Virus record (IMG/VR): IMGVR_UViG_3300031972_001313
Coordinates: 1-35,556 of that record
Strand: one strand, 5' to 3'
Source: a virus
Length of the DNA: 35,556 nt
Within the stretch, counting starts at the first letter, position 1. Each line of letters begins with the position of its first letter. Shown here in pieces: positions 2,399-11,789 of this stretch. The position numbers were made by a program, and so were the translations under genes. The notes beneath the pieces are model-generated. The model was not told the origin of the DNA and did no database searches. It was given only the letters and a program-made list of their open reading frames with translations.

Positions 2399-2901
2399 AC
2401 ATATTCATACTTGACACTGACCCTGCTACTGCGGCTCGTATGCACTGTGACAAGCATGTGCCTAAGATGTGCGTCGAAGCGGCACAGATGATGGCATCAG
2501 CCCTGCGCCGACATGGTGCGACTGATGAGTACATGCCACTCACCAAAGCAGGTAAGCCCTACAAGGGTGGCTACAAGCATCACCCATGCACAGTATGGGC
2601 TGGCGACAGCCAAGAGAATTGGATGTGGCTTGCTCACCATGCCATGCAACTGTGTGAAGAATACTACAAACGATTCAATAAAATACACGCTTGCACTGAC
2701 CCTATCTATCACATGATAGGTATGCAGAAAATAATTCCCGAAGGTGGGCTGACACCATTCGCACAGGCCATGCCCGACGAGTATCGTAATAACGATGCGG
2801 TCAAGGCATACCAAGCCTACTACCATTCCAAACAGTTCGCCAAGTGGGAGAAGGGTACACCTGCTCCCGACTGGTGGCGAGGCGTGGAGGTGAAGGCGTG
2901 A
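2395..2901 (+). CDS. Conserved phage protein resembling pyrimidine-dimer DNA glycosylase/lyase relatives
   Basis: A 168-residue protein opening with MNIFILDTDP and CDKHVPKM (C18-D19-K20-H21), then HHPC (62-65), NWMWLA and an AMPDEYR block. This order (MNIF-LD-DP, DKHV-KM, HP, AMPDEY, FAKW near the end) is the pattern I associate with a family common in phage genomes, often listed as hypothetical and sometimes linked to endonuclease V-type glycosylases. Enzyme activity is therefore tentative. If right, it would act on UV-damaged DNA, sensible for a virus of sunlit water. It overlaps neighbours by 4 nt on both sides. The GGAGGTGA site for the next gene lies inside its -EVKA tail codons. Confidence 0.6.
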   Translation: MNIFILDTDPATAARMHCDKHVPKMCVEAAQMMASALRRHGATDEYMPLTKAGKPYKGGYKHHPCTVWAGDSQENWMWLAHHAMQLCEEYYKRFNKIHACTDPIYHMIGMQKIIPEGGLTPFAQAMPDEYRNNDAVKAYQAYYHSKQFAKWEKGTPAPDWWRGVEVKA

Positions 2902-3071
2902 GTGAAGACCAGTGTTATTGTGTAAACCCAGTATTGGTATTATCCATGAACATGTGTGGTAATTGTTCCTGTCGAATAGATTCAAGTCAGCCAAGAGGTA
3001 AGGACTTATGGGAAGGCTATGTTTATAGAAATGGTAAATGGGTATGGCAAGGCATGGGGGTGAAGGCGTGA
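2898..3071 (+). CDS. 57-residue Cys-rich microprotein (GTG start)
   Basis: Cysteines C6, C8, C20, C23 and C25 (CYC and CGNCSC) suggest a compact metal site, followed by an aromatic tail (WEGYVYRNGKWVWQG). Start GTG at 2898 is chosen because a strong GGAGGTGA site ends 4 nt upstream. An in-frame ATG at 2844 has no such site and would overlap its neighbour by 58 nt. The end of the gene repeats the same junction (GGGGGTGAAGGCGTGA), giving a GTG start to the next gene. Function unknown. Confidence 0.6.
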   Translation: MSEDQCYCVNPVLVLSMNMCGNCSCRIDSSQPRGKDLWEGYVYRNGKWVWQGMGVKA

Positions 3072-7645: not shown

Positions 7646-7651
7646 GTAATT

Positions 7652-7707
7652 ATTCGATAGACTGAATCAAATGATATATAAATACTAAAAGAAATGGGGA
7701 TTGAGAA
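7652..7707 (+). repeat. 56-bp perfect direct repeat, right copy
   Basis: Same sequence as 6832-6887. Here the part that encodes the end of a protein in the left copy is non-coding, lying after the ParB stop. This points to the left copy as the original arrangement. Confidence 0.9.
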
Positions 7708-9945: not shown

Positions 9946-10902
9946 ATGGCGGGATTTGGACAGACAGCAGAAGCACAGAAGAAAATTAAGGCTGAAGTAA
10001 GCGAGCCGGTAGAGGTTAAGAAGCCTCTTTCCGGCGACCCCTTCGCTGAAATGCGAGCCGAAGACAACGCTCGTACATACATGATGAAGACACATCAGTT
10101 CATCGGTATCATGGGACATGACGGTACATGTAAGTCGGCTATCGTTCTCGATGCCTTTGAGAAAGACGAATCGAAACCCGAAGACTCAACACTTCAAGTG
10201 ATTGACTTTGACGGTGGCGGTGGTATGCTTAACTCATCTATTTACAAGAATGAAAACATTCGCTCATGGAATCCGTGGCAAATGGGGCATGACCGTACAG
10301 CACACGATTACCCTGCTACACACGACCGTATCATGAAAATCATGCGATACCTCATCAATGAAGCCGAAGCCGGTAAGCCGGTGTGGGGCGTACTGTTGAG
10401 TGGTATTGATTCATGGCTTGAGATATGCAACCATAACATGCGTATCGTTGACTTGGGTATGGCGAAAGACGCTATCCAATCAGCGGATTACAGCGGTGGT
10501 GGCATGGAGAAAATCAAGTCGCAGACAGCGTGGGGTATGCGTAACGCTCGCTTTCACCAACTCACTCGATTGAGCCGTGACCTTGTTCGACTCGGTGTGC
10601 GTGTCTTTTGGGAAACACACATGACTATCGCCAACTTCTCTTACAAGAGTGGGCCGGTTGATGAGTGGAAACCTGCGTGGGAAAAGAAAATGAACGGCTA
10701 CTTACCAACCATTATCCACATGCAAGAGACACAGGAACATAACGATGAAGGTGAATTAGAAAAGACAGTCTTTACAGCGTCGTACACTAAGTGTAAGACC
10801 AATCCAAACCTCGTGAATCAGTCTCGGTCTGTCTTCGTGACACGACCCGATGGCGATTACACATGGAATGGACTACCGGACTTGTATGACGGTACACTAT
10901 GA
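9946..10902 (+). CDS. RecA-fold ATPase (Sak4/RadA-like) with altered P-loop
   Basis: A 318-residue protein. Residues 52-68 (FIGIMGHDGTCKSAIVL) form the P-loop with G-H-D-G-T-C-K-S where GxxGxGKS is usual, so Cys replaces the last glycine. A hydrophobic strand ending in Asp (WGVLLSGIDSWLE) is the Walker B candidate. Size and layout match phage Sak4-type single-strand annealing or recombinase ATPases, which are reduced RadA relatives. It would assist recombination or replication-fork repair together with the upstream SSB-like protein. ATG at 9946 follows a perfect GAGGTGAT site. After the stop comes the only intergenic gap over 100 nt in the replication block. Confidence 0.65.
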   Translation: MAGFGQTAEAQKKIKAEVSEPVEVKKPLSGDPFAEMRAEDNARTYMMKTHQFIGIMGHDGTCKSAIVLDAFEKDESKPEDSTLQVIDFDGGGGMLNSSIYKNENIRSWNPWQMGHDRTAHDYPATHDRIMKIMRYLINEAEAGKPVWGVLLSGIDSWLEICNHNMRIVDLGMAKDAIQSADYSGGGMEKIKSQTAWGMRNARFHQLTRLSRDLVRLGVRVFWETHMTIANFSYKSGPVDEWKPAWEKKMNGYLPTIIHMQETQEHNDEGELEKTVFTASYTKCKTNPNLVNQSRSVFVTRPDGDYTWNGLPDLYDGTL

Positions 10903-10903
10903 G

Positions 10904-11028
10904 ACTCCAAGTGAGGTAGGTTTGTCAAGTAATAAGGAGTAAGGTTTTCACAATCGAATGGGCTTCGGTTGCCACTGATAGGGGGTTTGGTTTTGTTGCC
11001 CCTTCTCCTTTCCTACTTACACTATGAG
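10904..11028 (+). ncRNA. Structured intergenic element between RecA-fold ATPase and clamp genes
   Basis: Base pairs read from sequence: 10910-10913 with 11020-11023; 10914-10920 (AGGTAGG) with 11012-11018 (CCTACTT); 10934-10939 (AAGGAG) with 11005-11010 (CTCCTT); 10941-10944 with 11001-11004. That is about 21 pairs closing an apical region of about 56 nt with further small hairpin options (GGC-TTCGGTT-GCC). The 11-bp sequence TACACTATGAG occurs at both ends (10893-10903 and 11018-11028). Removing one copy plus the middle would restore a normal tight gene junction. It could be a separate small RNA, a 5' leader structure of the clamp gene, or an inserted element. Expression is not shown. Confidence 0.5.
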
Positions 11029-11036
11029 GTGATATT

Positions 11037-11789
11037 ATGACTAAAATTACAGTGAATAAAAGCGAGTTCCTCTCGTTCCTTTCTGTCTTCACGAAAGGTG
11101 TACCCGACCTACGGTTGGATTGCGCTGGTTCTCGTGTAACGGTTGAGGTTGCTTACGCATCGTTTTACTTGCGAAAGTATTTCCTTTCCGTACAGGTGAT
11201 AGAAGAAGGGGCTATCCACATCGCTGACCTTGAGAAAGCACTCAAGTTCATGAAAGCGACAAAGGAGGATAATGTAACACTGCGGCAAGTGGACACGCAC
11301 AAGCCACTCCACATTGAAGCAGGTGGTAACAAGTTGCAACTACCGAGTACGAATGATATTGAGTCAGCAATCAAGGCCGTTGTAATTCGTTCACTGTTAA
11401 AGAAGTGTCAAGAAGGTGGGTGGGCTAAGTTTGGTAACTCCAACTTGTCCACCCACTCATCACTGATGACAAAGGATTTGATTTCATTTGCCAACATGCG
11501 TGGCATACTGGCGAAGGACACGGACTTCAAGTTGCGTATTCACTGCGGTGAAGAAGAGGTAGGTATTGTAGCAGGTAAGGCGGCGAGTGGTCGTTTGTTT
11601 ACCACACTCCCTGTATGGGACACTGATGGCCCTGCTACTACTGTTGACTCTATGTTCTCCGATGCCCTACCTACCTGCCTCAACTATCTCGATGACGGTG
11701 AGGCTCGTATGCACATGGGTAGAGGAACGATAGTAATTTTTGAACAAGTAACCACGCTTCTCATGGTCGTAGATGTAGGTGATGACTGA
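11037..11789 (+). CDS. PCNA-like sliding clamp
   Basis: A 250-residue protein of the right length for a PCNA monomer (about 245-260). It has a repeated beta-alpha-beta layout: residues 1-110 and about 125-250 form two similar halves. The C-terminal part (GRLFTTLPV, then MFSDALPTCLNYLDDGEARMHMG and IVIFEQVTTLLMVV) fits the end of a clamp domain. Overall similarity is weak, so the call leans on size, pattern and position between a clamp loader and PolB. As a trimeric ring it would tether the polymerase. ATG at 11037 follows GAGGTGAT. The structured element at 10904-11028 lies immediately upstream and could affect its expression. Confidence 0.6.
   Translation: MTKITVNKSEFLSFLSVFTKGVPDLRLDCAGSRVTVEVAYASFYLRKYFLSVQVIEEGAIHIADLEKALKFMKATKEDNVTLRQVDTHKPLHIEAGGNKLQLPSTNDIESAIKAVVIRSLLKKCQEGGWAKFGNSNLSTHSSLMTKDLISFANMRGILAKDTDFKLRIHCGEEEVGIVAGKAASGRLFTTLPVWDTDGPATTVDSMFSDALPTCLNYLDDGEARMHMGRGTIVIFEQVTTLLMVVDVGDD

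Follow-up and report, generated by a model that had tools for sequence, protein, structure and literature searches.

A covarying, pseudoknotted RNA precedes the putative sliding clamp gene of viruses resembling magroviruses and is a candidate leader of that gene

The DNA analysed, here called the window, comprises positions 1-35,556 of the IMG/VR virus record IMGVR_UViG_3300031972_001313 and has a length of 35,556 nucleotides. It harbors PolB, clamp loader, primase-like and thermosome-like genes, and no tRNA was detected in it. These genes fit the magroviruses of marine archaea, a placement that comes from gene content and not from a tree; the Magrovirales/Poseidoniales viruses (e.g. Aoguangviridae) likewise possess PolB, clamp, clamp loader and primase together with a thermosome-like chaperonin (PMC10768690). 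On the + strand, a gene encoding a Sak4/RecA-like ATPase of 318 amino acids (9946-10902, stop codon 10900-10902) is followed by a gene for a putative sliding clamp (PCNA) of 250 amino acids (11037-11789, ATG at 11037). According to the list of open reading frames, the gap between them measures 134 nt (10903-11036). The initial annotation described it as the only large gap in the replication block, and indeed no other gap near its size is found from about 7.7 kb to 23 kb, the runner-up being only 55 nt long (7646-7700).

The 250 amino acid product is called a putative sliding clamp on the basis of its context, with PolB, clamp loader and Sak4-like genes adjoining, and of the syntenic protein of a related virus, L128, which matches the processivity-factor family phrog_947 (E 7.5e-8); the clamp protein of the window itself gave no match in Pfam, PHROG or NCBIfam. 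The homolog of the Sak4-like protein in L131 matches the Sak4-like family phrog_124 (E 2e-5), and a Sak4-like gene is located 5' of the clamp gene in 36 of 36 loci tested. The clamps of the viruses compared here form two groups which occupy a syntenic position (11037-11789 in the window, 8676-9440 in L131) and show no detectable sequence similarity to each other. The replication proteins that neighbor the clamp are 22-38% identical between the two virus groups.

The RNA that the gap would encode on the + strand is composed of a helix P1, a 5' junction J1, a helix P2, a variable arm, a hairpin P3 and a one-base return J2, with a pseudoknot between J1 and the bases preceding P3. The 5' strand of P1 (AGTGAGGTAGG, 10910-10920) pairs with a 3' strand (11012-11023) that reads CCTACTT, a bulged A11019 and CACT, as indicated by both covariation and folding. 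J1 (TTTGTCAAGTAAT, 10921-10933) conforms in most members to the consensus UUUUG..(A/G)GUAAU and includes the 5' strand of the pseudoknot (UGUCA, 10923-10927), whereas the 3' strand (UGAUA, 10976-10980) is situated just 5' of P3. P2 is formed by AAGGAG (10934-10939) and CTCCTT (11005-11010) and is linked to P1 by J2 (11011), a single pyrimidine in nearly all members and mostly C. Folding of the apex gave the variable arm (10951-10971, a hairpin of 10951-10958 with 10964-10971), which is unconserved and missing from compact members, and P3 (10981-11003, 10981-10986 paired with 10998-11003). The Shine-Dalgarno sequence of the clamp gene (GAGGTGAT, 11026-11033) lies shortly 3' of P1. Conserved unpaired bases comprise the U run, the (A/G)GUAAU motif and a CCUCC motif near P3. 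The latter occurs on the 3' side or in the loop of P3 in 20 of 30 members as compared to 1.4 in shuffled sequences, and its exact form is absent from P3 of the window itself. A fold of about 21 base pairs had been proposed earlier for this gap; its outer helix (10910-10920 with 11012-11023, bulge A11019) proved right, but only six of its ten inner pairs, those of P2, are conserved, and the remaining AAGG/CCTT pairs compete with the conserved P3 hairpin. Most lineages outside the clade of the window (L133, L131, L157, L042, L140, L138) carry an extra hairpin, P0, between the Sak4-like stop codon and P1; its sequence differs each time and to the eye it has a covarying look.

A search with the clamp protein led to 17 relatives in IMG/VR, and these, like others added later, have a gap of comparable size at the same place. 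The distance from the end of the Sak4-like gene to the clamp ATG is 91-173 nt, and almost every relative shares a gap of this length, even where the clamps have no detectable similarity. A covariance model (R1) built from ten relatives, with the window left out, recovered the window (E 6e-11) as well as further clades that had not entered the model (E 3e-5 or better). Scanning with a sequence pattern yielded five records outside the clamp search (L125 and L128-L131; R1 E 1e-6 to 2e-9), whose downstream protein shows neither BLAST nor profile similarity to the clamp of the window. When the clamps of these five records were used as queries, 28 loci were obtained; R1 matches 26 of these, three of them more weakly than E 0.04, and every match is located directly upstream of the clamp gene. 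A second model (R2), built on 31 sequences, found the element at 5e-8 in L152, a record included in neither training set. By inspection L011 and L046 also fit the architecture; both models miss L011, and R2 reports L046 at the right place at E 0.57 only. According to R1 and R2 the element is apparently missing in L043 and L158, in L043 throughout the 61.7-kb record. In L043 an extra open reading frame (ca. 2410-3004) lies between the Sak4-like gene and the clamp gene and overlaps the clamp start.

Every record that carries the element has it once, between the Sak4-like and clamp genes. The initial annotation had suggested looking for other copies, but none turned up that was convincing, either in the window or in the viral records searched (up to 107 kb), the sole second match having an E-value of 0.11. 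A pattern scan that omitted the 3' arm gave 63 stretches, of which only the one in L084, a contig already known, has the element. In cellular genomes 25 pattern matches were obtained, about the number estimated to arise by chance; none of six that were inspected resembles the element, and the four best by model lie within long open frames. The clamp protein gave no match in cellular genomes, the element was not found in the cultured haloarchaeal tailed viruses HVTV-1, HSTV-4 and HRTV-27, which are distant relatives by PolB, and named phage records contained no match to either clamp type.

Folding of the single sequence is unremarkable in energy (z = +0.31; 123 of 200 shuffles fold equally well), so the structure is established by comparison and not by stability. 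Among the 31 sequences fitted to the model, 12 of the 14 pairs of P1 and P2 changed on both sides (7 of 8 in P1 and 5 of 6 in P2), with 133 such cells. Overall, 94.8% of the cells are paired, versus 68% after shuffling and at most 55% with the partners slid. P2 is paired in 100% of the cells, and its fourth pair is seen as UA, GC, CG, AU and GU. An alignment blind to structure was made with MAFFT from the helix arms and junction only, with no structural information; the arm boundaries were picked by eye, which favours pairing, and in this alignment 94.2% of cells are paired against 75.4% in shuffles and at most 63.4% when slid. In the same alignment 12 of 14 pairs changed on both sides, as compared to 7.2 in shuffles, and the covariation score was 0.674 versus 0.296. 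The tests against the model, and a test in which matched arms of P1 and P2 were compared with arms swapped between sequences (0 of 20000 permutations reached the observed pairing), do not depend on the eye-chosen boundaries alone.

For the pseudoknot, the corresponding comparison in 28 sequences gave a pairing of 329 within sequences and 243 ± 11.5 between them (maximum 287, 0 of 3000), while the 3' half of J1, used as a control, gave no signal. Other members pair here as GUUAG/CUAAC, UUGUAC/GUACAA, UUAGC/GCUAA, GUCAG/CUGAC, AUCAG/CUGAU and CACCAAAAA with UUUUUGGUG. These permutation counts overstate independence because the sequences are related, and the stronger argument is that the pair types vary among clades whose clamps are 55-60% identical and also between the two clamp groups. 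Among wobble-type cells outside Watson-Crick pairing in 28 sequences, 15 are G.U and one is A.C, and this 15:1 ratio implies that selection acts on the + strand RNA. Covariation and conservation of the paired bases had been chosen beforehand as the decisive test of the structure; covariation is present and the paired bases do not drift freely. On this comparative evidence the gap holds a conserved structured RNA.

The position of the RNA relative to its neighbors is informative as well. From the end of P1 to the clamp ATG there are 11-18 nt in 26 of 28 members, whereas the distance from the upstream stop codon to P1 varies from 4 to 69 nt. The tight spacing on one side and the loose spacing on the other indicate that the element is anchored to the clamp gene; as the Sak4-like gene is always upstream, synteny alone could not make this assignment, but the spacing does. 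Throughout the members the Shine-Dalgarno sequence is found between P1 and the clamp ATG, and in 26 of 28 it starts 0-8 nt past the 8-nt core of P1. The element is thus consistently located 5' of one gene, on the same strand and close to its ribosome binding site, a placement characteristic of cis-regulatory leaders. In the clade of L042, L044, L045 and L049 the distance from P1 to the ATG is 35 nt and includes a TATA-like sequence, CTTTATAAATC (ca. 2967-2977), which possibly is a separate clamp promoter in the L042/L044 clade.

Starting from the fold, its conservation, its strand, its unique place and its fixed distance to the start codon, we infer co-transcription with the clamp gene, an action on translation and control by a ligand. 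The element is best explained as a cis-acting leader for translational control of the viral clamp cistron, a function read from sequence to which we assign a probability of about 0.68. A leader that tunes PCNA synthesis was among the options listed in the initial annotation, and covariation, the single location and the constant distance from the start codon now make it the best supported of them. Co-transcription of the Sak4-like and clamp genes would yield an RNA whose intergenic 120 nt fold as P1-J1-P2-(arm)-P3, with the pseudoknot pinning J1 to the bases that precede P3. P1 would close the fold a few bases 5' of the Shine-Dalgarno sequence, within the space required by an initiating 30S subunit. 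The stability of P1 and the pseudoknot would then set, and probably switch, initiation at the clamp gene without regard to readthrough from the cistron before it. The fold could either repress initiation until it is bound or keep the Shine-Dalgarno sequence accessible. Some observations count against a leader. In the L042/L044 clade the TATA-like sequence follows the element, so the clamp gene could be transcribed there without it, and L043 and L158 apparently dispense with the element although their clamp is presumably still expressed. A helix in which CCUCC of P3 would mask the Shine-Dalgarno sequence directly is not supported, since the complementarity of the P3 region to the Shine-Dalgarno sequence of the same genome (344 versus 323 in shuffles) does not exceed that of shuffles or what composition predicts.

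Because the RNA is recognisable where the clamp proteins are not, its ligand is expected to be more constant than the clamp surface. It might be the ribosome or an RNA-binding protein of the host, a conserved protein of the replisome, or else a metabolite. By the same token, retention of the RNA where clamp similarity is undetectable argues mildly against autogenous binding by the clamp.

Alternatively, the element may be an independent viral small RNA that is processed from the gap or transcribed in it and acts in trans on targets of the host or the virus, its place reflecting a frozen gene order. A compact, pseudoknotted, highly conserved RNA present in a single copy would suit such a role, and the TATA-like box 3' of the element in the L042 clade would permit separate transcription of the clamp gene. 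A small RNA accounts poorly for the spacing, which is tight to the clamp start codon and loose to the upstream gene, and no copy is found elsewhere in records of up to 107 kb, for which reasons we consider it rather unlikely. An element for mRNA stability or processing is likewise unlikely. Its pseudoknot could bring a 5'-3' exonuclease to a halt, or a ribozyme or cleavage site could split the Sak4-like message from the clamp message and thereby raise the clamp yield. An exonuclease could plausibly be blocked by a pseudoknot that encloses a 5' strand, the element sits between two cistrons, and extra hairpins follow the upstream stop codon in many relatives; however, there is no credible match to Rfam ribozyme or exonuclease-resistant families, and the spacing is locked to the Shine-Dalgarno sequence, not to the upstream stop.

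A DNA element such as a replication origin or a protein-bound cruciform is very improbable. The gap does lie within the replication gene block and its inverted repeats could extrude, and an origin-like structure was among the options of the initial annotation, but the asymmetry between G.U and A.C, the conserved unpaired bases, the constant orientation directly before the Shine-Dalgarno sequence and a GC skew that remains positive and does not turn at 11 kb all speak against it.

The gap in the window is bounded by an 11-base direct repeat, TACACTATGAG at 10893-10903 and 11018-11028, exactly as first annotated. The initial annotation saw in this the look of an insertion that had duplicated its target, or of an RNA gene that had been copied, neither of which is supported. 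The exact 11-mer is shared only by near-identical records and shrinks to 9 nt in L004 and L005 and to 3-8 nt in more distant relatives; repeats of this kind are expected by chance, the window containing four pairs of 11-mer repeats at a spacing of 12-150 nt as compared to 1.65 in shuffles. No empty site was found in close relatives, and L043 and L158, which are without the element, are distant and rearranged or shortened there. As nearly all relatives, including those with dissimilar clamps, possess the long gap while the repeat is limited to one small clade, the gap must be ancestral, and the idea that the element was inserted recently, with duplication of its target site, can be dismissed in spite of the exact repeat in the window and its near-identical records.

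A cis-acting clamp leader can be compared with known regulatory RNAs. No Rfam 15 family reached its gathering threshold for the window; in E-value mode only chance-level matches were obtained for the window, L017 and L128, and none for L138 and L155. The ICTV profile of the Aoguangviridae (PMC10768690) makes no mention of a leader or other structured RNA ahead of the clamp gene, and a search by terms found none in the magrovirus paper PMC10160649; an earlier description may exist elsewhere. Like riboswitches and the leader operators of ribosomal proteins, the element combines conserved unpaired junction bases within covarying helices, a pseudoknot, a single copy and a location directly 5' of the Shine-Dalgarno sequence; unlike them, it has no credible Rfam match in the five members searched. 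It is tempting to go further and propose a new class of ligand-sensing RNA (an aptamer, a riboswitch, or an operator bound by a conserved protein of the ribosome or replisome) that is specific to marine archaeal viruses. Such an RNA would link production of the clamp to the infection state, and its fold would have persisted longer than the sequence similarity of the controlled protein; we regard this as possible but tentative.

The closest system in terms of working appears to be the gene 32 operator of phages T4, T2 and RB69, in which a viral gene for a replication protein likewise has a pseudoknotted leader 5' of its ribosome binding site (PMC3014915, PMC535899), with the proviso that the clamp identity is indirect in our case. 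The gene 32 pseudoknot is bound by gp32 and was in a 2010 review considered perhaps the sole viral pseudoknot in translational autoregulation; it is positioned 67 nt 5' of the start, where it nucleates binding that proceeds cooperatively along an A+U stretch lacking structure (PMC3014915, PMC535899). In contrast, the pseudoknot of the clamp leader lies inside a long helix, P1/P2, whose end is beside the Shine-Dalgarno sequence, the gene encodes a clamp and the host is archaeal. As spacing and topology differ, membership in the gene 32 type is not claimed. What was found is a strongly covarying pseudoknotted RNA, one per genome, before the clamp gene of two or more virus groups that are deeply separated. 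If it is a true operator, the T4 gene 32 pseudoknot would have an equivalent in archaea, which would offer a test of whether viral replisomes across domains meter their parts by translational feedback. To our knowledge, archaeal viruses have so far offered few examples of structured regulatory leaders, and gene regulation of these uncultured viruses is a blank.

Two further features of the locus deserve mention. L009 and L011 (5884-6000 and 5864-6000, respectively) are 95.8% identical in the DNA of the Sak4-like gene and 94.5% in that of the clamp gene and differ in the gap sequence, where 57 of 93 aligned bases match in an alignment of 161 columns. The divergence begins soon after the upstream stop codon and stops at the clamp start codon. 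By inspection, the L011 gap retains P1, P2, a pseudoknot of 5-6 bp and a P3 whose sequence is unrelated. It looks like a functional module swapped for a distant homolog; a second example of the L011 form was not found. Finally, the last codons of the Sak4-like gene in L009-L018 and L028-L049, GGG AGT TTG, are nearly always identical in DNA; the proteins of these lineages are only about half identical to those of the window. All three codons have synonyms, which suggests a second constraint acting on this stretch.
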